Shown piece by piece: positions 49,669 through 60,144 of a stretch of 64,000 nt of DNA. Every line of letters begins with the position of its first letter. Within the stretch, counting starts at the first letter, position 1. Below the pieces are notes generated by a model that was given only the letters and a program-made list of their open reading frames with translations, had not been told where the DNA came from and did no database searches. The DNA is from Propionivibrio soli (lineage in GTDB: Bacteria > Pseudomonadota > Gammaproteobacteria > Burkholderiales > Rhodocyclaceae): positions 124,001 to 188,000 of the forward strand of contig NZ_JANZKY010000003.1 in assembly GCF_025770765.1 (NCBI RefSeq), written 5' to 3'. Made by a program: the position numbers and the translations under genes.

Positions 49669-50307
49669 ATGAACGAGAACGACGTGATCAATTGTATTGA
49701 AGGCGGGAAAGGCTGCGTCGCCACACGGCACCCAGACCCGAACGTCACGTTGTCCTCTTCAAAGCGGCCATCACGTCGCTCATCAGTTGCCCATTGCGTT
49801 GGCCATGTTGTGTCCTTGCTCGCTGTATGCGTTGCCTGCGGGACTCCGGCGATGGCGCAGGAAAGCGCCTATTTTCAAGGGGGGGCGCTAACACGCCCCT
49901 CCGGGAAAAACCTCATTAACGATGCCGAAGCAGGGGCTGGATGGGTACTTCCTTGGAGTTGGTATGAGGGGAGGCTTTCAACCCGGCTGGACGTTGGCGT
50001 GGGGTATACGAATACCAAGGCCGATGATGCGCTACGCTTCCACGTAACGCCACTTCTGCGTTACCAGGCGGCGCAGCGGGGAATGTTTGGGGAACTTGGC
50101 GTTGGCGTGGTCTACCTTTCCGAAAGCGATTGGGGACGACATCACGAGCTCGGTGGCCATCTGCAATTTGGCACCCGAGTGGGAGTCGGCTATGACTTCG
50201 GCGATTACGACCTGAGCTTGAACGTTCTGCATGTCTCCAACGCCGGGCTGAAAAAGCACAATCCGGGAGCAGAGATCGTTGGGATACGGTTCTCACGTTC
50301 TTTCTGA
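49669..50307 (+). CDS. pagL: Lipid A 3-O-deacylase
   Basis: A 212-residue outer-membrane beta-barrel enzyme that removes the 3-O acyl chain of lipid A. Near the C-terminus HVSNAGLKKHNPGAE matches the active-site pattern of PagL, with His, Ser two residues later and Glu fourteen residues after the His. The protein ends in an aromatic residue (FSRSF), as outer-membrane barrels do. The ATG at 49669 follows GGAG; the signal peptide (hydrophobic core VVSLLAVCVACGTP, cleavage after PAMA) then has an unusually long N-terminal region of about 40 residues, so a later start is possible. Confidence 0.85.
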   Translation: MNENDVINCIEGGKGCVATRHPDPNVTLSSSKRPSRRSSVAHCVGHVVSLLAVCVACGTPAMAQESAYFQGGALTRPSGKNLINDAEAGAGWVLPWSWYEGRLSTRLDVGVGYTNTKADDALRFHVTPLLRYQAAQRGMFGELGVGVVYLSESDWGRHHELGGHLQFGTRVGVGYDFGDYDLSLNVLHVSNAGLKKHNPGAEIVGIRFSRSF

Positions 50308-50343
50308 CAAAGCTCTCTCGGCGCAGAGCGGGATTTCGACGCG

Positions 50344-51318
50344 ATGGTGATCGAATCGCCAGGAGCTGCTTTTGTCGGCATTTCCGGTTGGCGCTATGCG
50401 CCGTGGCGTGGTGCGTTTTACCCCGTCGAATTGCCGCAACGCGAAGAACTTGCCTTTGCCTCGCGTTCCTTGCCGAGCATCGAGATCAACGGCTCGTTCT
50501 ATTCGCTGCAGCGTCCCGAGCTCTATGCGTCCTGGTACGCGGCGACGCCCGCCGATTTCGTTTTCTCGGTCAAGGGACCGCGCTACATCACGCATCGTTT
50601 GCGCTTGAAGGAGGTGCAGATCCCCCTCGCCAACTTCTTGGCCTCGGGAGTCCTTGCATTGCGTGAGAAGCTCGGGCCGATTCTCTGGCAGTTTCCGCCG
50701 CAACTGCCGTACAAGCCTGAACGCTTCGAAGCATTCTTTGAAATGCTGCCACGGGATACCCGACAGGCAGTTATTCTCGCGCGCGAACATGACAAGCGTC
50801 TGGATGGGCGCGTTTGGCTGGATGTGAAGGAAAATCGGCCGTTACGGCACGCGATCGAAATCCGTCACCCGAGCTTTGTCGATCCGGACTTCATCGCTCG
50901 ATTGAGACGGCATGGACTTGCGCTCGTGGTTGCGGATACCGCGAAACGCTGGCCATTGCTCGAGGATCTCACAGCGGACTTCGTCTACATGCGATTGCAT
51001 GGCGACATCGAGCTGTATGCGAGTGGCTACGATGACAAAGCGCTGGACTTTTGGGCGCTGCGCATCGATCGTTGGCGGCGGGGCGGGCAGGTTGAGGACG
51101 CGCGGTTAGCCTCATCTGAGGCCGCCGGGCCGGCATCGCGCCGCGATGTTTTCTGCTATTTCGACAACGACATCAAGGTGCGCGCGCCGTACGACGCAGC
51201 ACGTCTGGCGCAACGGCTGGGGCTTCGTACCAGCCTCGATGCTAAGGGGTACTTTCCCGTACCGGAAGGAGTCACCTTGTCGAAACGAAAGCGGGCCAAG
51301 TCAAGCGAAGAAGGCTGA
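50344..51318 (+). CDS. DUF72 family protein (YecE-like)
   Basis: A 324-residue predicted TIM-barrel protein. Family motifs: VGISGWRYAPWRGAFYP, EINGSFYSLQRPE, FVFSVKGPRYITH, LGPILWQFPPQLP, AIEIRHPSF and a C-terminal VFCYFDNDIKVRAPYDA. The function of DUF72 proteins is not established. It is 36 bases downstream of pagL on the same strand, so may be cotranscribed, and is convergent with the Fsr-like gene. Confidence 0.88.
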   Translation: MVIESPGAAFVGISGWRYAPWRGAFYPVELPQREELAFASRSLPSIEINGSFYSLQRPELYASWYAATPADFVFSVKGPRYITHRLRLKEVQIPLANFLASGVLALREKLGPILWQFPPQLPYKPERFEAFFEMLPRDTRQAVILAREHDKRLDGRVWLDVKENRPLRHAIEIRHPSFVDPDFIARLRRHGLALVVADTAKRWPLLEDLTADFVYMRLHGDIELYASGYDDKALDFWALRIDRWRRGGQVEDARLASSEAAGPASRRDVFCYFDNDIKVRAPYDAARLAQRLGLRTSLDAKGYFPVPEGVTLSKRKRAKSSEEG

Positions 51319-51353
51319 GGGCCCAAAAACCGGTCTGCTCTATTCCGTGGCGA

Positions 51354-52592
51354 TCAGCCTTTCGCCGGCACGAGGGCTTCCTGACGTCCAACGTATTTGA
51401 GGTCGGGCAGAAAGACGGCCAGCAGTCCGATCAGCGGGAGATAAGCACAAACCCGGTAAACCGTGACGATGCCCCAGTGATCGGCGAGCTGGCCGAGGAC
51501 GGCCGCGCCGATGCCCGCGAGTCCGAAGGCTAGCCCGAAAAAGAGGCCGGACACCGTGCCGATCTTTCCAGGGAACAATTCCTGGGCATAAATCAGAATC
51601 GCCGGGAAGGCCGAAGCGAGCATGAAGCCGATGATCATCGTGAGGATCACGGAGGGCGTCGGTCCGACGTAAGGCAAGGCCAGCGTAAAAGGGGCGATGC
51701 CGAGAATCGATGCCCAGATGACACGCTTACGGCCGATACGGTCGCCAATGGGGCCGCCCAGCAAAGCGCCCGCTGCCACGGCCGCCAGGAAGTAGAAGAG
51801 GTGGTACTGTGCTGTCTGCGTATCCAGGTTGTACTGATGCATCAGGTAGAAAATCAGGTAGCTGTTGATGCTGGCCATATAGAAGAATTTCGAAAAAATC
51901 AGGGCCAACAGCACGGCGAGCGTGCGCAGCACATGCGACCTTGGTAAGCCATGCCCCGACTCGACGGCCTTAGCTGCTGGCCGCCGTTGGTGTTCGCGGT
52001 ACCAGCGGCCGACGCCGGTAAGCACGATCATGGCGATCAACGCCATGAGCGAGAAAACCGCAATGCTCCGTTGCCCGTGGGGCAACACGATCCAAGCCGC
52101 GAGCAGAGGGCCTGTCGCTGCCCCCGCGTTCCCACCGACTTGAAAGATTGACTGCGCTAGGCCATGGCGTCCACCGGAAGCCATGCGGGCGACGCGCGAG
52201 GATTCAGGATGGAAGATCGAGGAACCGGTGCCGATGAGTGCCGCGGCTAACAGAACCACAGGGAAGCTGCTGGCGACCGAGAGCGTCAGCAGTCCGACAA
52301 GCGTACAACCCATGCCCAGCGCCAGCGAGAACGGCTTCGGATGACGATCGGTATAGAAACCGACGAACGGCTGCAGCAGCGAGGCGGTAAATTGAAAGGT
52401 TAGCGTGATCAATCCGATCTGCGCAAAGCTCAACCCGAAGGCCGTCTTGAACAGAGGATAGATCGCTAGCATCAATGACTGGATCGTGTCATTGAGAAAA
52501 TGCGAAAAACTGATAGCGCTCAGGACTTTGAACGCGGGCCCGGGACGGGCGGGGGCGGTGGAAGCTGCTTGCATTTGCGGTAACCGAGTCAT
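51354..52592 (-). CDS. fsr: Major facilitator exporter, fosmidomycin-resistance (Fsr) type
   Basis: A 412-residue MFS transporter with about twelve TM helices. Fsr-type features: FSHFLNDTIQSLMLAIYPLF in helix 1, GFYTDRHPKPF in loop 2-3, GTGSSIFHPESSRVARMASG in helix 4-5, and GDRIGRKRVIW in the central loop. E. coli Fsr exports fosmidomycin; the natural substrate is unknown. Starts at 52592 or 52574 are both possible. It is divergent from an AraC regulator, which probably controls it. Confidence 0.88.
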   Translation of the reverse strand: MTRLPQMQAASTAPARPGPAFKVLSAISFSHFLNDTIQSLMLAIYPLFKTAFGLSFAQIGLITLTFQFTASLLQPFVGFYTDRHPKPFSLALGMGCTLVGLLTLSVASSFPVVLLAAALIGTGSSIFHPESSRVARMASGGRHGLAQSIFQVGGNAGAATGPLLAAWIVLPHGQRSIAVFSLMALIAMIVLTGVGRWYREHQRRPAAKAVESGHGLPRSHVLRTLAVLLALIFSKFFYMASINSYLIFYLMHQYNLDTQTAQYHLFYFLAAVAAGALLGGPIGDRIGRKRVIWASILGIAPFTLALPYVGPTPSVILTMIIGFMLASAFPAILIYAQELFPGKIGTVSGLFFGLAFGLAGIGAAVLGQLADHWGIVTVYRVCAYLPLIGLLAVFLPDLKYVGRQEALVPAKG

Positions 52593-52665
52593 ACCAGGAC
52601 AAATGTGACTATAGAGCGTACGATGATTGTCCGTCTCTCGAAAAACAGGCATTCATCTGCTCGAA

Positions 52666-53460
52666 ATGGACATCGGCTCGCCTTTCATTCCCGGTGGTGG
52701 AAAAGACGGAGGTGAAAGCCCCGTCGCCGGCAAATCGAAGGATTTCGCGGCCGGGTTTGAGATCAAGGCGCACAGCCATCGGACAACTCAACTGCTGTAC
52801 GCGGTACAAGGGGTTATGGTGGCCAATACCGATGCCGGACAGTGGGTCGTGCCGCCTACGCACGGGCTTTGGTTACCGGCCGGGACTGTCCATCAAGTAC
52901 GCATGGTGGGCGAGGTGCAATTGCGTACACTCTATTTCCAGCCAGCCACGGTTGCGGACTTGCCCAACCAGTGTCGCGCTGTCGGTGTGTCGCCTTTATT
53001 GCGACAGTTGATCCTGGCGGCAATCGACGTTCGCGAGCCATACACCGCCGATTCACGAGACGGTCGCCTGATGCGGCTACTGCTCGATGAAATTGCGGTA
53101 ATGCCGAATCTTCCATTGCGCCTGCCTTATCCGACGGACCCCGTGCTGCTCTCGGTATGCCGCGGTCTCGTCGCCCGCTTGGAAGACGCAGAACCGCTCT
53201 CGTCTTGGTCGGAACGTCTCGGGATTCATGCCAAGACGATCGAACGACGTTTCTTGCGCGAGACGGGTCTGACATTCGGACAGTGGCGGCAACAAGCCCG
53301 GCTGATTACCGCCCTGGAACGTCTTGCGAGAGGTGACAAAGTCGTGGATGTCGCGCTGGAACTCGGTTACAGCGGCCCGAGCGCTTTTGCGACCATGTTC
53401 AGAAAGCACTTTGGCGTGCAGCCCAGCGCGTACTTCCATCGGGAGAAAGAATCCGCCTGA
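52666..53460 (+). CDS. AraC-family regulator divergent from fsr
   Basis: A 264-residue regulator. The N-terminal cupin domain (IKAHSHRTTQLLYAVQGVMV; WVVPPTHGLWLPAGTVHQVR) is followed by two helix-turn-helix motifs (LSSWSERLGIHAKTIERRFL; VVDVALELGYSGPSAFATMF) and the usual ending GVQPSAYFHRE. The ATG at 52666 is chosen; an in-frame TTG at 52627 would intrude on the divergent promoter region. This type of cupin-AraC regulator is often paired with a transporter gene, as here. Confidence 0.87.
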   Translation: MDIGSPFIPGGGKDGGESPVAGKSKDFAAGFEIKAHSHRTTQLLYAVQGVMVANTDAGQWVVPPTHGLWLPAGTVHQVRMVGEVQLRTLYFQPATVADLPNQCRAVGVSPLLRQLILAAIDVREPYTADSRDGRLMRLLLDEIAVMPNLPLRLPYPTDPVLLSVCRGLVARLEDAEPLSSWSERLGIHAKTIERRFLRETGLTFGQWRQQARLITALERLARGDKVVDVALELGYSGPSAFATMFRKHFGVQPSAYFHREKESA

Positions 53461-53613
53461 TCAGGTGCTGCATGCCTCTCCAACCCGTGAGGAAAGAGCG
53501 ATCACTTGAGGAAAATGCTCAAAGGAGTGAGGGTCGCGATGGCCGAAACCGTGACTTGCGCTTCACCCGGTAATTCGAGCGCGCCTAGAAATGCAAGCGG
53601 GAGCAGAAGGCAA

Positions 53614-53649
53614 AAACGACAAAGCGCCTCGGAAGGCGCTTTGTCGTTT
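53614..53649. terminator. Bidirectional terminator beside tRNA-Asp
   Basis: A perfect 16-base-pair stem, AAACGACAAAGCGCCT / AGGCGCTTTGTCGTTT, with a CGGA loop. It ends the minus-strand tRNA-Ala-Glu-Asp unit. Confidence 0.9.
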
Positions 53650-53655
53650 GATTAT

Positions 53656-53732
53656 TGGCGGAGTGGACGGGACTCGAACCCGCGACCCCCGGCGTGACAG
53701 GCCGGTATTCTAACCAACTGAACTACCACTCC
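53656..53732 (-). tRNA. tRNA-Asp (GUC), copy 2
   Basis: 77 bases with encoded CCA, anticodon GTC, identical to the copy at 40977-41053. Third gene of the minus-strand tRNA-Ala-Glu-Asp unit. Confidence 0.97.
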
Positions 53733-53776
53733 AATACTGCTAACAATTGCGACGTTTTGCCGCATTTGCCTAATCT

Positions 53777-53852
53777 TGGCGTCCCCACGGGGATTCGAAC
53801 CCCGGTACCAACCGTGAAAGGGTTGTGTCCTAGGCCTCTAGACGATGGGGAC
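53777..53852 (-). tRNA. tRNA-Glu (UUC)
   Basis: 76 bases with encoded CCA. The acceptor stem begins GTCCCCA; the anticodon loop CTTTCAC gives TTC. It lies downstream of gltX, whose product charges it. Confidence 0.97.
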
Positions 53853-53883
53853 CCGGACTAAAACTCTTTTTCTTTCGGCGCTC

Positions 53884-53959
<76 letters not shown>

Positions 53960-53976
53960 GCTCGAAAGAAGCGCGC

Positions 53977-54005
53977 ATTATAGGGATGAGCCCGAAGCTT
54001 GTAAA
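53977..54005 (-). promoter_or_regulatory. Promoter of tRNA-Ala-Glu-Asp
   Basis: On the minus strand TTTACA (54005-54000), a 17-base spacer, and a perfect TATAAT (53982-53977). Transcription would begin about ten bases before tRNA-Ala. Confidence 0.85.
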
Positions 54006-54040
54006 GCGCTTTTTGATTCATGGCCTCCGTAGAGCGCCTG

Positions 54041-55435
54041 TTACTCGATTCCACCGGCCGCCAGCCGCTTGAGAACAAGGTCGCGCGGGAAGAGCGAGAT
54101 GACAGCATCAACTGAGGGGGTCTGCGTCTGACCGGTGAGCAATACGCGTAGCGGCATGGCCAGCTTGGGCATTTTCAAGCCGTGTTTCCCGATGCATGCC
54201 TTGATCAATGCGCTGATCGCCGAAGCCTCCCACGTTACGGTGCGGGCACCGGCGAGGAAATCAGCGAGTGCCGGTTTTGCCTCAGCCGTAACGTGCTGTG
54301 CAACGAGTTCGTGAGCCGGGTGCAGATCGATGTAGAACACTTCGGCGGCGTCAGCGAGTTCGTTCAGCGTGCTCACGCGTTCTTTGTACAGGGCGATGAT
54401 CGCGGCCAGCGACGGCTCGACCGTCACCATGACCCCACGGGCTTCAAGCCGTGGTTGCACCAGCCTCGCGAGTCGCTCGTCCTCTGCTTGCTTCAGATAG
54501 TGCGCGTTGAGCCAATTCAGCTTCTCGGTATTGAACTGAGCCGCCGACGGTGTGATGTGATCGAGGTCGAACCATTCGCAGAATTGCTGCATTGAGAACA
54601 CCTCGTCGTCACCATGCGACCAGCCGAGCCGGGCGAGGTAGTTGAGCACGGCCTCTGGCAAGTAACCGTCATGGTCGTACTGCATGACACTCACCGCTCC
54701 GTGGCGTTTGGAGAGCTTCTGCCCATCGTCGCCGAGAATCATTGAGAGATGGGCATAGAGCGGGACGTCGGCCCCAAGTGCTTTCAGGATATTGATTTGC
54801 CGGGGCGTGTTGTTGACGTGATCGTCGCCGCGAATGACGTGGGTGATCCCCATGTCCCAGTCGTCGACGACGACACAAAAGTTGTAGGTCGGCGTCATGT
54901 CGGCCCGTGCGATGACAAGGTCGTCAAGTTCGGCGTTGGCGATCTCGATGCGGCCTTTCACGAGGTCGTTCCAGGCGACGGTTCCTTCCGTCAGATTACG
55001 GAAGCGGACTACGGGCTGAACGCCGGCTGGCGGCGTCGGCAAAGTCTTGCCGGGTTCCGGGCGCCACGTTCCGTCGTACCGCGGTTTCAAACCCTTGGCG
55101 CGTTGGTCCTCGCGCATCTGTTCCAGCTCTTCGGGCGTCGTGTAGCAATAGTAGGCAGAGCCGTTCTCAAGCATTTGCTGCAGGACTTCTTTGTACCGGT
55201 CCATCCGCTGCATTTGGTAAAACGGGCCTTCGTCGTGCGCAAGGCCGAGCCAATTCATCCCATCGATGATCGCTTGCACTGCCTCCGGCGTTGAGCGGGC
55301 GACGTCCGTATCTTCGATACGCAGCACGAATTTTCCACCGTGATGCCGGGCAAAAGCCCAGGAAAAGAGGGCGGTGCGCGCGCCGCCAATATGCAAAAAG
55401 CCTGTCGGAGAAGGAGCAAAACGAGTGCGGATCAT
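54041..55435 (-). CDS. gltX: Glutamate--tRNA ligase
   Basis: A 464-residue class I aminoacyl-tRNA synthetase. It begins [20 protein letters not shown] with the HIGH-type motif; the KMSKS-type motif is KLSKRHG in [15 protein letters not shown]. The C-terminal anticodon-binding helical domain is complete. The ATG at 55435 is at the conserved N-terminus; upstream in-frame starts at up to 55504 would run into the promoter region. It lies directly upstream of the tRNA-Ala-Glu-Asp genes, which have their own promoter. Confidence 0.96.
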
Positions 55436-55487
55436 GGTTTGAGGGCGTTGGCGAAAAGATTCTATTGTAAAGGAACGCCAAAGCGAT

Positions 55488-55516
55488 TTGACCGGACTCG
55501 GCACGTATGGTTAAAT
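55488..55516 (+). promoter_or_regulatory. Promoter of tRNA-Val(CAC)
   Basis: TTGACC at 55488-55493, a 17-base spacer, and TTAAAT at 55511-55516, ending fourteen bases before the tRNA. A minus-strand TACAAT (55469-55464) nearby probably serves gltX. Confidence 0.7.
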
Positions 55517-55530
55517 CGCGTCCCTCTATC

Positions 55531-55605
55531 GGGCAGTTAGCTCAGCGGTAGAGCACCGCCTTCACACGGCGGGGGTCACTGGTTCGATCCCAGTACTGCC
55601 CACCA
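55531..55605 (+). tRNA. tRNA-Val (CAC)
   Basis: 75 bases with encoded CCA. Acceptor GGGCAGT / ACTGCCC; anticodon loop TTCACAC gives CAC. The sequence immediately downstream carries transposon-end-like repeats. Confidence 0.96.
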
Positions 55606-55610
55606 TTGTT

Positions 55611-55695
55611 TGTGTGTCGTTTCCAGCGTTTTGTGTCCCGTTAAGCATAAAGTGGCCATGCGGACGCTTATTGCTTTATTTCACGTTGGGACACA
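55611..55695. repeat. TGTGTC-type repeats after tRNA-Val, possible transposon-end remnant
   Basis: TGTGTGTCGT at 55611-55620 and TGTGTCCCGT at 55632-55641 are imperfect direct repeats 21 bases apart. TGTGTCCC (55632-55639) is also an exact inverted repeat of GGGACACA (55688-55695). Clustered TGT-beginning repeats are what the ends of Tn7/Tn5053-like elements look like, but I cannot assign a family, and no matching far end was found. Confidence 0.35.
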
Positions 55696-55772
55696 TTTTG
55701 GTTTATCGGGTTGTCTGAAGTACAGTCAAAAGTTTTTTTCCGAAACGGTGCCACACCGGCAGCCGACGCATA

Positions 55773-55798
55773 AAAACGGGACCCGCAGGTCCCGTTTT
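55773..55798. terminator. Bidirectional terminator between tRNA-Val and the TniQ-like gene
   Basis: Eleven-base-pair stem AAAACGGGACC / GGTCCCGTTTT with a CGCA loop. Confidence 0.85.
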
Positions 55799-55823
55799 GC
55801 ATTTTTGGATTAGGAGTGAGTAA

Positions 55824-56486
55824 TTAAGCGTCGTTCGCAACGACCGCCTTGGCGACATGTCGGTAGGTATGACGAACCGATTTCAGCTCATCATCCAAGC
55901 GCGCCCAGATCTCCCGGGCACTGATTCCCTCGTAGCCCTCTTCTAGCCGTTCCTGAACCAACTGCCCCACCTGTTCCTGAAGTCGCCCCACCTTCCCTTG
56001 TCGTAACGCTTCCTGGTATCGGCGGGAGCGATCGACAAGAGCGCGCGTCTCCGCGTTGGCACGCAGGTAGAGCAACTTGTGCTCAACCCCGGTGCGGCGG
56101 CAGGCTTCGACCAGGGTGATCGGAGTTTCCTCCGCCAGCAGGGTTCGCAACTGTTCTCGGATCGCGTCCCAGTCCAGTTCGCGGGAACGGATTCCCTTCC
56201 GGGGCGAGGTCAAGAGAGGCAGGGTGAGCTGCACCGGTTCAACGGGAGGCGTCCAATCCGAGAGGTCGCCGGCAAACAGCCGGCGCAATGGCAGGCCACT
56301 GTGTCGAGCGATCGCCAGCCAGGCCGGGAGGGATGGCGACCCGCCTTTACGGACCCAATGCCACACGCCGCTTTTGGATAGATCGAGTCGCCGAGCGAAC
56401 GTGGTGACGCTACCACCCGCCATCCGTTCGATGAGGATTTCGAGAAGCGGGAGGAGCCCCTCAACGCCACCCGAGACGGGCACCAC
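55824..56486 (-). CDS. Orphan protein resembling the C-terminal region of TniQ/TnsD target selectors
   Basis: A 220-residue, probably DNA-binding protein. An N-terminal helix-turn-helix (FARRLDLSKSGVWHWVRKGG, then LPAWLAIARHSGLPLRRLFA) is followed by GDLSDWTPP and a second helical unit (LDWDAIREQLRTLLAEETPI, then LVEACRRTGVEHKLLYLRA). The pairing of a small HTH, a GDL-W linker and repeated LREVARRLG-like units resembles the C-terminal half of TniQ/TnsD proteins, which choose insertion sites for Tn7-like transposons. The zinc-binding N-terminal half of TniQ is absent: a stop lies four codons before the GTG start. No tniA/tniB, tnsABC, Cas gene or integrase is near. It could be a truncated relic or an unrelated regulator. 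Confidence 0.5.
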   Translation of the reverse strand: MVPVSGGVEGLLPLLEILIERMAGGSVTTFARRLDLSKSGVWHWVRKGGSPSLPAWLAIARHSGLPLRRLFAGDLSDWTPPVEPVQLTLPLLTSPRKGIRSRELDWDAIREQLRTLLAEETPITLVEACRRTGVEHKLLYLRANAETRALVDRSRRYQEALRQGKVGRLQEQVGQLVQERLEEGYEGISAREIWARLDDELKSVRHTYRHVAKAVVANDA

Positions 56487-56609
56487 AACAGCTCAGCGCG
56501 CACTTCTCATCCAGGCTGCCGCGCAATTGGGAAAAATGCAGGCGATGACGTAAAGTTGTTGCTATAAGGGCTGCCGATAGCGCGGGGTGAGGACGCTCAT
56601 CGAGTGGAA

Positions 56610-57467
56610 ATGGGAAACGAAATGTTTCATTCTGTCATCGCGTCGGTAGCACGCATCCGGCGCCGACGCTGCTCTCCGTCCCGTCCCGGATGGCTGCGTC
56701 GCGCGGTGGCTGCCATCGTGCTTGGCGGAAGCGCATTCTTCGCCTGGGCCCAGACGGGTTCTCCCGAACTCACCATCCTGCATTTTGAACGCATGCCATA
56801 CTTCGGCGTTGAGAGCGGTCGGTCTGCCGGGCTGTTGGTCGACATTTCCGGGTTGGTCTTCGCAGAGGCGAAAATCGCTGTGCGGTACCAAGTGCTTCCT
56901 GTGCGCCGGATATTCGCGATGCTGGCGGAGCCCTTCAATGCCTGCACGCTCGGTGCTCTGAAAACCGAAGCGCGAGAAAAGACGTACGCCTACTCCGACG
57001 ACTTCATTTACCAGGATCAGCCGTTCACGGTCATCCTCAACGCAAAGCATCGCCATCTGTTTTCCAAGGAACCTACGGTCCGCGATATCCTTGAGAGTCC
57101 GCTTCGTCCCGGAGTCATCGACGGGTATGCGTATGGCGAATGGCTTGACCGTAATCTTGCGCAATACCAGCCGACTCTGAGCCGAATCAATATCGGGGAT
57201 GATACGGCCCGGCTGTTCAGGATGATCATCGCCGACCGCGTAGATTACATGTTCGCCGTGGTCGAAGAGGCGGACTACGTGTTGCGCCGACATCCGGAGT
57301 TCGCACGCGATCTCGTGAAAGTCGCGCTGGCGGACGCTCCTGCGGGAAACAAGCGCTACTTGCTATGCAGCAAGGGCATCGACAAGGACCTGATGCGGCG
57401 CATCAACGTGGCTATCGCACGGGTGAAGACCAGTTCGGAGTACGGCTCGGTCATCATGCGGCGATGA
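56610..57467 (+). CDS. Periplasmic solute-binding-like protein (SBP family 3 type)
   Basis: A protein of about 285 residues with a long basic N-terminus, then a signal-type helix (AAIVLGGSAFFAWAQTG). The mature part starts LTILHFERMPYFGVESG and has FNACTLGALKTEAREKTYAY and DRVDYMFAVVEEADYVLRR, reminiscent of bacterial amino-acid-type binding proteins encoded without their own permease. The ligand is unknown. ATG codons at 56610 and 56622 and a GTG at 56604 are all possible starts. It is 126 bases upstream of cdaR on the same strand. Confidence 0.7.
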   Translation: MGNEMFHSVIASVARIRRRRCSPSRPGWLRRAVAAIVLGGSAFFAWAQTGSPELTILHFERMPYFGVESGRSAGLLVDISGLVFAEAKIAVRYQVLPVRRIFAMLAEPFNACTLGALKTEAREKTYAYSDDFIYQDQPFTVILNAKHRHLFSKEPTVRDILESPLRPGVIDGYAYGEWLDRNLAQYQPTLSRINIGDDTARLFRMIIADRVDYMFAVVEEADYVLRRHPEFARDLVKVALADAPAGNKRYLLCSKGIDKDLMRRINVAIARVKTSSEYGSVIMRR

Positions 57468-57593
57468 GGGTCGGTTCCTCTGCCACCGATGGTCAATTGG
57501 GCATTCTCTTGTGAGGCGAACGATTCCATAGAGCGACGCTTTCGCGCGCGCTTCCGGGGTAGACTCACCGTTCTGTCTTTCGTTAGGCGGGCA

Positions 57594-58745
57594 ATGGTTT
57601 CCATCGACTCCAAGCTGGCGCAGGAAATCGTCGAACGGACGATGAAAATCATCCCGTTCAACGTCAACGTGATGGATGCACGGGGAATGATCGTCGGCAG
57701 CGGCGAGGGCGCAAGGATCGGCGAAGTGCACGCCGGCGCACAACTCGCCCTCGCGCGGGGGGAGACGGTCGAGATTGAACTGCCCGATTCGCGCAATATG
57801 CCCGGTAGCCGGCCGGGTGTGAATTTACCGATGACTGTGCGCGGGGCGCTGTGCGGCGTGGTCGGTCTTACCGGGGATCCCAGAGTCGTACGACAGTTCG
57901 GCGAACTCGTCCGGATTACCGCTGAAATGATCCTTGAACAGGCCCAGTTGCTCGGGGAGTTGCAGCGCGAGAAGAGATACCGCGAGGAGTTCGTCTTCCA
58001 TCTGGTTAATCAAGAGAACACATCGCGTGCCGATCTTGAGGCTTGGGCTCTGCGGCTCGACATCGATTTTGATGTGCCGAGGGCCGTGCTAGTGCTCAAC
58101 TTGACCGAAGAAGAGCTACCAACCGACCAGGCGCTCAAGGAGCTTCAGCGTTGTCAGACGCAACTTGCCATCCGCCAACCGGAGGCACTAACTGCCGTGA
58201 TTTCACCGCGCGAGATGGCGATCCTCAAAGTTTTCGACGATCGTGCCTTGCGGAAGCCGCGGCAAATTATGGCGCGCGAAGAATTGGCGGCTCTGGCTGC
58301 GGCTCTCGAAAGGGAAAGTGGACGACTGTGTTCGCTCGCCATGGGCGTCGCCTTGCCCGGCATCGAAGGCGTGCCGCTTTCCTACCAGAGCGCATGCAAG
58401 ACGTATCGGGTCGGGCGGCAACGTTGCCCTGAGAAAAGACTCTTCTCGTTCTACGACCTCAGCCTTCCCGTGCTGCTTGCCAGCCTGGGATCAGGCTGGC
58501 AGGGCGAACAATTGCGCCGTCCGCTGCAGGGGTTGAATGCTGCGGACAAACGGGGCGCCATGCTGCGGCGAACCTTGGATGTATGGTTCGCTCAGAACGG
58601 TCATGCAGCGGCGGCCGCCAATGCATTGCATATTCACCGCAACACGCTTGATTACCGGCTGAATCAGATCGAGGAAGCGACTGGCCTGGATCTGGGTAAT
58701 ACGGATGACCGACTGTTGCTGTACGTCGCACTGCAACTCGATTGA
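57594..58745 (+). CDS. cdaR: Sugar-diacid-type transcriptional regulator CdaR
   Basis: A 383-residue regulator. The N-terminal diacid-recognition domain starts LAQEIVERTMKIIPFNVNVM and contains RIGEVHAGAQLALARGETVE; the C-terminal PucR-type helix-turn-helix reads NALHIHRNTLDYRLNQIEEA and ends LLLYVALQLD. In E. coli CdaR senses glycerate or related sugar acids and activates their uptake and breakdown genes. Here it is convergent with a GntP permease and a glycerate kinase, its probable targets. The ATG at 57594 gives the family-typical N-terminus. Confidence 0.92.
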   Translation: MVSIDSKLAQEIVERTMKIIPFNVNVMDARGMIVGSGEGARIGEVHAGAQLALARGETVEIELPDSRNMPGSRPGVNLPMTVRGALCGVVGLTGDPRVVRQFGELVRITAEMILEQAQLLGELQREKRYREEFVFHLVNQENTSRADLEAWALRLDIDFDVPRAVLVLNLTEEELPTDQALKELQRCQTQLAIRQPEALTAVISPREMAILKVFDDRALRKPRQIMAREELAALAAALERESGRLCSLAMGVALPGIEGVPLSYQSACKTYRVGRQRCPEKRLFSFYDLSLPVLLASLGSGWQGEQLRRPLQGLNAADKRGAMLRRTLDVWFAQNGHAAAAANALHIHRNTLDYRLNQIEEATGLDLGNTDDRLLLYVALQLD

Positions 58746-58764
58746 TACGCGCTACATGGGTATC

Positions 58765-58792
58765 GGGGCTCCGGCGGAGAAGCCGAAGCCCC
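58765..58792. terminator. Possible hairpin between convergent cdaR and gntP-type genes
   Basis: GGGGCTCCGGC pairs with GCCGAAGCCCC (one mismatch) around a six-base loop. There is no T run, so termination efficiency is doubtful. Confidence 0.4.
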
Positions 58793-58800
58793 TACGAGCG

Positions 58801-60144
58801 CTAGATCAATGCGATCTTCAGTACGTAGACAACTGCAATTCCAACGAGCCCTTGAATGAGGGTGCCCATGCTGTGGCACTTATAGGCAAGGTCGACCTTA
58901 AGGCCGGAGAACTGCGATACGACCCAGAAGTAGGAGTCGTTGGCGTGAGAAATCACCATGGCGCCGCACCCGACAGCCATCGTCGCGAGGACGGCACCCG
59001 TCGGCGTTGCGAGACCAAGGGTGCCGAGCAGCGGGTAGACGATGGCCGACGTAGTGATCAGTGCGACAGTTGACGATCCTTGGGCCGTCTTCAATGCCGC
59101 GGCAATGATGAACGGCAGGAAGATGCCGAGATTGAATGCCGCGAGACTGCTGCCCAGGTAGTCGGCAATCTTGCTTGCGGCGAGCAAGGCGCCCAACGAT
59201 CCGCCCGCGGCCGTGATCATGATGATGGCCGCAGAGTCTTTCAGACCGTCGCTGACCCAGCCCGACAGAACTTCTTCGTTAAGCTTTGGAACCAGGGTGA
59301 AGCAGCAGAGAAATCCGAGCAGCAACGAGACCATCGGTTCGCCGATGAAGTCCAGCGTCAGCTTCAACATCCCATTTCCGAAGGGCAGGCTGGGGAAATT
59401 GGCCACCGATTTCAACGCGATGAGCACGATGGGCAGCACCAGCGGCAGGAATGCCGAGAAAGCGCTGGGCAGGTTCTTGTATTTCTCCAGCAGCTCCTCG
59501 TAGCTGATCGATGACTCGGCAATCACCTCGTAGTGGCTTGCGAATTTCGTTGCCCAGAGGTAGCCCGCAATCGTCACCGGGATTGCCACGATCAGTCCGA
59601 CGGCGATGACCATGCCGAGGTCGGCGTGCAGGTTGTTGGCGGCCGCGATCGGTCCTGGCGTCGGGGGTACGAGCGTGTGGGTCGCATACAGGCCGGTCGA
59701 AAGCGCCGTTGCCATGACGGCCATCGAAACACCGGATTTGCGCGACAGCGATTTGTTGAGAGCTGAGAGGATGACGAAGCCCGAATCGCAGAAAACCGGG
59801 ATCGATGTGATATAGCCGATGATGCTCATCGCCAATGCCGGCCGTTTGGCACCTACGACCTTGAGCACGGTTTCGGCCATCGTCAGCGCAGCGCCCGTCT
59901 TCTCCAGGAAGACGCCGATGATCGTTCCCGCAATGATGACGATGCCGATCTTCTCGGCGGTACCACCAAAACCTTTCATTACCGCCTTGCTTACTTCGAC
60001 CGGATTCATTCCCGCGGCGAGCCCGACGAAAAACGCGGCCGCGAGCAAGGCGAGGAATGCGTGCACCTTGAGTTTGGAGATCAGCACCACGATCATGACG
60101 ATCGCGATGACCAGTATGACGAGCAACATCGGCCCTTGTACCAT
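58801..60144 (-). CDS. GntP-family sugar-acid permease
   Basis: A 447-residue proton symporter with about 12-14 helices. GntP features: KAVMKGFGGTAEKIGIVIIA, the loop SIPVFCDSGFVILSALNKSL, TGLYATHTLVPPTPGPIAAA, and near the end VISHANDSYFWVVSQFSG. GntP proteins import gluconate and related acids; the glycerate kinase upstream on the same strand suggests D-glycerate or a sugar acid degraded to it. AGGAGGG precedes the ATG. Second gene of the glxK-gntP unit. Confidence 0.9.
   Translation of the reverse strand: MVQGPMLLVILVIAIVMIVVLISKLKVHAFLALLAAAFFVGLAAGMNPVEVSKAVMKGFGGTAEKIGIVIIAGTIIGVFLEKTGAALTMAETVLKVVGAKRPALAMSIIGYITSIPVFCDSGFVILSALNKSLSRKSGVSMAVMATALSTGLYATHTLVPPTPGPIAAANNLHADLGMVIAVGLIVAIPVTIAGYLWATKFASHYEVIAESSISYEELLEKYKNLPSAFSAFLPLVLPIVLIALKSVANFPSLPFGNGMLKLTLDFIGEPMVSLLLGFLCCFTLVPKLNEEVLSGWVSDGLKDSAAIIMITAAGGSLGALLAASKIADYLGSSLAAFNLGIFLPFIIAAALKTAQGSSTVALITTSAIVYPLLGTLGLATPTGAVLATMAVGCGAMVISHANDSYFWVVSQFSGLKVDLAYKCHSMGTLIQGLVGIAVVYVLKIALI

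Follow-up and report, generated by a model that had tools for sequence, protein, structure and literature searches.

A scar of a tRNA-homing Tn7-like transposon beside tRNA-Val(CAC) in Propionivibrio soli

In a stretch of 64,000 nucleotides of the Propionivibrio soli genome (hereafter, the window), an open reading frame (ORF) of 220 codons is located beside a tRNA-Val(CAC) gene, with short repeats between the two. Is this arrangement a leftover of a mobile element, or does it include a protein kept by the host for a purpose of its own, the two possibilities raised in a first-pass annotation of the sequence? We find that the feature is real but ordinary, namely, the scar of a tRNA-homing Tn7-like transposon. 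The locus consists of the following features:

55531..55605, plus strand: complete tRNA-Val(CAC) gene, the attachment (homing) site (ARAGORN; Rfam RF00005)
55606..55633: chromosomal spacer of 28 nt, from the tRNA 3' end to the transposon end, a gap as in the right ends of relatives
55634..55706, plus strand: transposon right end, with the terminal TGTCCCGTTAAGCATAA and three TnsB-like 19-mers (collinear alignment with L069 and L070)
55773..55798, no strand: terminator-like hairpin with a T-rich tail, after the tniQ stump (hairpin search)
55824..56486, minus strand: truncated tniQ/tnsD, a 220-codon ORF with a GTG start, C-terminal half only (homology to full-length TniQ)
56460..56603: deletion or rearrangement joint, its position set by the end of the tniQ homology; no transposon sequence recognised beyond it
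56604-60144: genes for a weakly matched solute-binding (periplasmic-binding-type) protein, a CdaR-type regulator and a GntP-type transporter, abutting the scar

The 220-residue ORF first described is present, on the minus strand, its 3' end pointing toward tRNA-Val(CAC), and homology identifies its product as the C-terminal half of a target selector of the TniQ/TnsD type. The nearest relatives found are the C-terminal halves of the 424-aa TniQ proteins of L069 (Zoogloeaceae MAG EBPR_Bin8) and L070 (Dechloromonas sp. H13), with 62-64% identity (best-segment identity of 63% and 64%, respectively, over residues 2/9-219 of the stump); homology to full-length TniQ begins at about residues 2-9 of the ORF. 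In a phmmer search against the PDB, TnsD of 8v32 ranked first (E 1.6e-4); antibody light-chain rows in the same output were taken as chance. A seven-row TniQ alignment was too diverse for the collection scan, and therefore a three-row alignment was used there. A three-row profile of the stump and two full-length relatives matched TnsD of 8v32 with an E value of 5e-37 over 18-403 of 434 positions. Pfam TnsD (PF15978) was not among the stump's matches at E<=1. Pfam, NCBIfam, PHROGs and PADLOC gave no family name for the stump, only weak HTH-type or chance-level matches, on which basis an unrelated regulator family was rejected; the N-terminal TniQ domain (PF06527) had no match in the ORF, and a phage search with the stump returned nothing at E<=0.01. 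The two HTH-like units initially read from the translation are supported indirectly, by weak HTH matches in the stump below the Pfam cut-off, by HTH_3 at positions 241-280 of the L014 homologue (Pfam), and by AlphaFold helices 125-132/136-142 and 190-219, which lie in the confident part of a model (residues ~101-220) with a low overall mean pLDDT of 65.4. A Foldseek search with this model gave no match at E<=0.001, and the matches listed did not include TnsD; the predicted structure was left out of the family assignment.

A tree was built from 12 C-terminal parts. In it, the stump groups with L069 and L070 (support 97/98), a less certain split (83/87) sets the proteins from tRNA-Ala sites opposite them, and the TniQ proteins from tmRNA and tRNA-Ser sites are distant. 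The stump has kept 30 residues that the L069 and L070 TniQs share but that none of the five TniQs compared from tRNA-Ala sites has. That the target follows the TniQ type agrees with the suggestion that a C-terminal extension confers site recognition (PMC10293859), and the residues that tRNA-Val-site TniQs share and tRNA-Ala-site TniQs lack are candidate determinants of target specificity.

The DNA between the tRNA and the ORF has relatives as well. From tRNA-Val to the middle of tniQ, the window, L069 and L070 align collinearly with 69% DNA identity, the spacer between the tRNA and the TGT being the unconserved exception. After this 28-base spacer, TGTCCCGTTAAGCATAAAGTGGCCA, which starts with TGT, begins at 55634, and the TnsB-like sites follow at 55640 (plus), 55661 (minus) and 55688 (minus), the second and third copies inverted relative to the first, with the spacings of 21 and 27 bp seen in the relatives. 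We compared 11 right ends of this group, 4 beside tRNA-Val, 5 beside tRNA-Ala(CGC), 1 beside tRNA-Ser(TGA) and 1 beside tmRNA. The gap from the RNA gene to the TGT is 26-29 nt in all 11; three sites spaced 21 and 27 bp are present in 8, and two of the three sites in the remaining 3. The site model was applied at score thresholds of 11.5 and 12.5; its training set comprised 13 sites, taken from the window, L013, L015, L016 and L017, with only L069-L074 being independent of it. Such ordered sites at a set distance from the attachment gene probably bind TnsB. The last 5 nt of the spacer, TTTTG, would be a target duplication if the second copy had survived; no second copy is seen in the window, so that insertion cannot be shown by duplication there. 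A hairpin-like sequence occurs at the place equivalent to the window's hairpin in L069 and L070 (alignment, by eye); terminator-like hairpins numbered 2, against a mean of 1.6 in shuffles.

The exact inverted repeat reported after tRNA-Val(CAC) is found as described, with TGTGTCCC at 55632-55639 and the complementary GGGACACA at 55688-55695. The former comprises the terminal TGTCCC of the right end and two bases outside it, and the latter forms an edge of the TnsB-like site at 55688. The two copies are within sequence conserved in other elements, but L069 and L070 do not have the exact pairing, and therefore the inverted repeat as such is partly coincidence. The TGTGTC-type direct repeats fared less well: two copies are present (55609-55621 and 55630-55642), but they are weak, and the first is in the chromosomal spacer, outside the element. 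An RNA-element reading of the region was rejected because only tRNAs passed the Rfam thresholds over 50000-60000.

Matches to the stump were detected in 12 of the 399 genomes sampled from the order, its own genome included, and a profile scan of genome contigs yielded 7 loci. L069 and L070 are tnsAB-tnsC-tniQ transposons in which tRNA-Val(CAC) is located just past the 3' end of tniQ. Pfam recognised a rve/Mu-type transposase, a TniB-type ATPase and TniQ in the operons of L069, L070 and L072, and equivalent domains in those of L014, L015 and L045, some of the rve matches being below the curated cut-off; the genes of L071, L073 and L074 were named by position and size. A TnsA-like N-terminus scored above the Pfam cut-off in L014 and L015 and just below it in L072, and was not reported for L045, for L069, where tnsAB is cut by the contig end, or for L070, where a TnsAB fusion is suggested by the length of the protein (892 aa) and by kinship. 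In Dechloromonas sp. H13, both ends of the element were located; it spans 36,188 bp (36.2 kb) and carries TTCAG outside each end, which also fixes the terminus. The gap, the ordered sites and the TTCAG-flanked H13 ends are hallmarks of a Tn7-like element with homing of the TnsD type, and the first-pass reading of the locus as a relic of a TniQ-carrying element is upheld by relatives in which homologous ends occur together with a full-length TniQ at tRNA-Val.

The cargo of the H13 element (L102, L103) resembles a defence island, with restriction-modification-type (Eco57I-type methylase), helicase, GmrSD-type and HNH domains as well as Wadjet-type ones (JetD, SbcC-like, MksE-like). The CRISPR-associated connection that had been considered for the locus found no support here: in L102 and L103, none of the 15 listed ORFs with a length of 120 aa or more, a set that leaves out a 1614-aa ORF at the L070 edge, contains a cas-type Pfam domain.

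Comparison within the genus shows how the site is occupied elsewhere. The gltX locus was obtained from 25 of 28 genus members, the own genome being counted among them, and tRNA-Val(CAC) was readable in 17 of these 25. None of the 16 readable sites other than the window's carries the right end of the stump family (flanks of 133-200 bases used); at 3 of the 16 (L025, L026, L030), the right end of another, related Tn7-like family is located 25-26 nt from tRNA-Val(CAC). The genome of L026 (G425) encodes tnsAB, tnsC and tniQ (L045), with tniQ ending ~4.3 kb from that right end. A tblastn search of the stump against the downstream stretches (133 to ~1,300 bases past the tRNA) gave nothing significant except L017, which is from another family. 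Because the window's right end is found at none of the 16 sites and another family's at 3, the tRNA-Val(CAC) site is a recurrent target, and the window's insertion is not genus-wide. The comparison with related genomes anticipated at first pass returned no further copy of this right end at the 16 readable genus sites; a fuller element at tRNA-Val was found in H13.

The machinery for mobility was sought in the own genome (4.76 Mb, 36 contigs). A TniQ-domain (PF06527) search found no match there, the same search being positive in 4 of 8 genomes; neither did a TnsC search (positive in 2 of 4 genomes, G425 and the query's own) nor a search with the nearest TnsAB, that of L070 (positive in 2 of 5, again G425 and the query's own). 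The L015 TnsAB as the query gave one marginal stretch of 88 residues (E 5.6e-4) with 3 stops on another contig (G000 contig 1:162500-162757, L049), which matches the C-terminal part of that protein; no tRNA is present within the 3.3-kb locus L049. This scrap may be a chance match because it was not recovered with the nearer L070 TnsAB. The scan for a left end began at the window start and ran 201.6 kb, to where contig 23 ends, and no left-end cluster was found. This is weak evidence because the model finds left ends in just two of the six relatives examined, namely H13 and L017, the latter having contributed sites to the training set. In the stretches of L015, L071, L072 and L074, none was detected; these elements may be longer than the stretches scanned, or their ends may escape the model.

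We conclude that the locus is, very probably, a relic of a tRNA-homing Tn7-like transposon and that the stump is most likely a non-functional leftover. A Tn7-like transposon with fused TnsAB, TnsC and TniQ(TnsD) would have homed to tRNA-Val(CAC) and entered on its 3' side, with TniQ recognising the tRNA gene and the right end joining 28 bp downstream, as the relatives and published work on TnsD suggest. A later deletion or rearrangement would have removed or separated the left end, tnsAB, tnsC, the cargo and the part of tniQ encoding the N-terminal half. Left behind would be the right end, next to the tRNA, and ~212 codons from the 3' end of tniQ, a stump that, without transposase genes, would be immobile by itself. 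Two other genomes contain stumps whose break points differ, in L017 as a 95-aa ORF, also at tRNA-Val, and in L016 at a HTH_21 transposase-type ORF, which favours decay, the simplest account. The open frame could then be explained by a short age or by chance.

The same open frame was taken in the first-pass annotation as a sign of retention. Against retention, the end branch of the window is longer than the sister path in the tree (0.33 vs about 0.2). In its favour, of the 62 residues that seven full-length TniQs have in common, the stump has changed 5, within the range of 0-11 (of 62-73) obtained when each of the seven is treated likewise. The changes on the window branch are distributed between codon positions 1+2 and 3 as on the sister stem (30 vs 24 changes, Fisher p 0.51, low power). 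Third-position GC is 0.71 in the stump and 0.72 in the host gltX, compared with 0.58 in L069 and L070, which could mean long residence. Dating the truncation by dN/dS was rejected given that synonymous sites are (nearly) saturated, with dS of 3.28 to L069 and infinite to L070, and a promoter search of 55500-57500 is uninformative, with 0 promoter-like sites found and 0.7 expected by chance. Constraint is not visibly relaxed, a result that does not separate recent truncation from retention and that does not support the intact frame as an argument for the latter.

The suggestion that the protein was domesticated is weakened for the same reason and by the differing break points of the other stumps. 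Under this explanation, the C-terminal, DNA-binding half would have been kept after the loss of the transposase to occupy the 3' site of tRNA-Val, either shielding it from other elements or modulating tRNA expression. Apart from the open 220-codon frame, the 30 retained tRNA-Val-type residues are compatible with such a role, as are the competing Tn7-like elements at this tRNA-Val in 3 of the 16 readable genus relatives, one of them with tnsAB, tnsC and tniQ ~4.3 kb away. The stump, however, is unmatched in all 23 same-genus relatives compared, several of which are incomplete drafts, and the work on Tn7 TnsD offers little encouragement: according to PMC2918618, all C-terminal deletions tested lose DNA binding, the contact with TnsC is in residues 1-309, and proteins truncated at the N-terminus resisted purification. 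Because of this placement of the TnsC contact and this loss of binding, a C-terminal piece alone, by analogy, would not be expected to recruit the transpososome. We consider domestication highly unlikely, and its specific form, in which the stump is expressed, binds the tRNA-Val 3' site and guards it against homing of other Tn7-like elements, even less so.

In another rival reading, the right end and the stump would be one side of a non-autonomous, still mobilisable mini-transposon with 56604-60144 as cargo and a diverged left end. A possible precedent is L017:8908-16162, where right- and left-end clusters lie 7.25 kb apart around the 95-aa tniQ stump and several ORFs in a genome without TnsAB, TnsC or TniQ-domain matches; L017, however, lacks a clean 5-bp duplication (CCCTA vs TCCTC). 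In all 7 other genus members with a CdaR match, this gene is on a contig other than that of the gltX locus or 0.9 Mb away, and therefore its place beside the scar is probably derived, as would befit cargo. The solute-binding gene beside CdaR, for which an origin as cargo was tested against these 7 relative CdaR loci, was found in none of them (flanks <=1.5 kb). A left end could be missed, considering the 2 of 6 relatives in which one was found, but the 201.6 kb scanned hold no left-end cluster, and the model does find the H13 left end, on which it was not trained. All told, we assign this explanation a very small probability, and a decayed, immobile stump remains the preferred reading.

The inferred parent element is of a kind already published, a fused-TnsAB, tRNA-homing Tn7-like transposon akin to PmcCAST, and the branch that combines fused TnsAB with tRNA-homing TnsD has been described (PMC11406308). 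PmcCAST (Tn7744, type I-B2 CAST; PDB 8v32/9bw1) resembles the window's family in its TnsD, which matches the profile of the stump and two relatives, in the long TnsAB proteins and TnsC of the window's relatives, and in that its published test plasmid carried a tRNA-Val gene (PMC10293859); unlike PmcCAST, the window copy lacks the N-terminal domain and the transposase, and the H13 relative shows no cas-type domain in the 15 cargo ORFs scanned. CyCAST (Tn7745, type I-D) inserts 30-33 nt downstream of a tRNA, compared with 26-29 nt here, but its target is tRNA-Leu, and it carries CRISPR-Cas I-D along with both TniQ and TnsD (PMC10293859). Tn7 shares TnsD-type homing and the 5-bp target duplication (PMC2918618), the latter seen in the H13 relative, whereas its target is glmS rather than a tRNA. 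In Tn7, TnsA and TnsB are separate proteins.

At least two Tn7-like families have tRNA-Val(CAC) beside gltX as a recurrent homing site in these and related bacteria. Decay can leave a right end and a 3' stump of tniQ as a recognisable scar, and such scars are usable for mapping past homing events.

Two further observations concern other loci of the comparison. In a Thiobacillus MAG (L015:9778-10360, the same contig stretch as L075), the right end of a sister tnsAB-tnsC-tniQ element is located 29 nt downstream of a tmRNA gene. Among the titles listed in a search of a paper collection for Tn7-like elements with a tmRNA or ssrA attachment site, none concerned such a target, and in the ssrA passage of PMC12452197 the gene is a qPCR reference. 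Positions 1-13696 of L073 form a head-to-head palindrome of a whole element and tRNA-Ala, with mirrored ORFs and two tRNA-Ala genes, which is probably an assembly artefact of the MAG.
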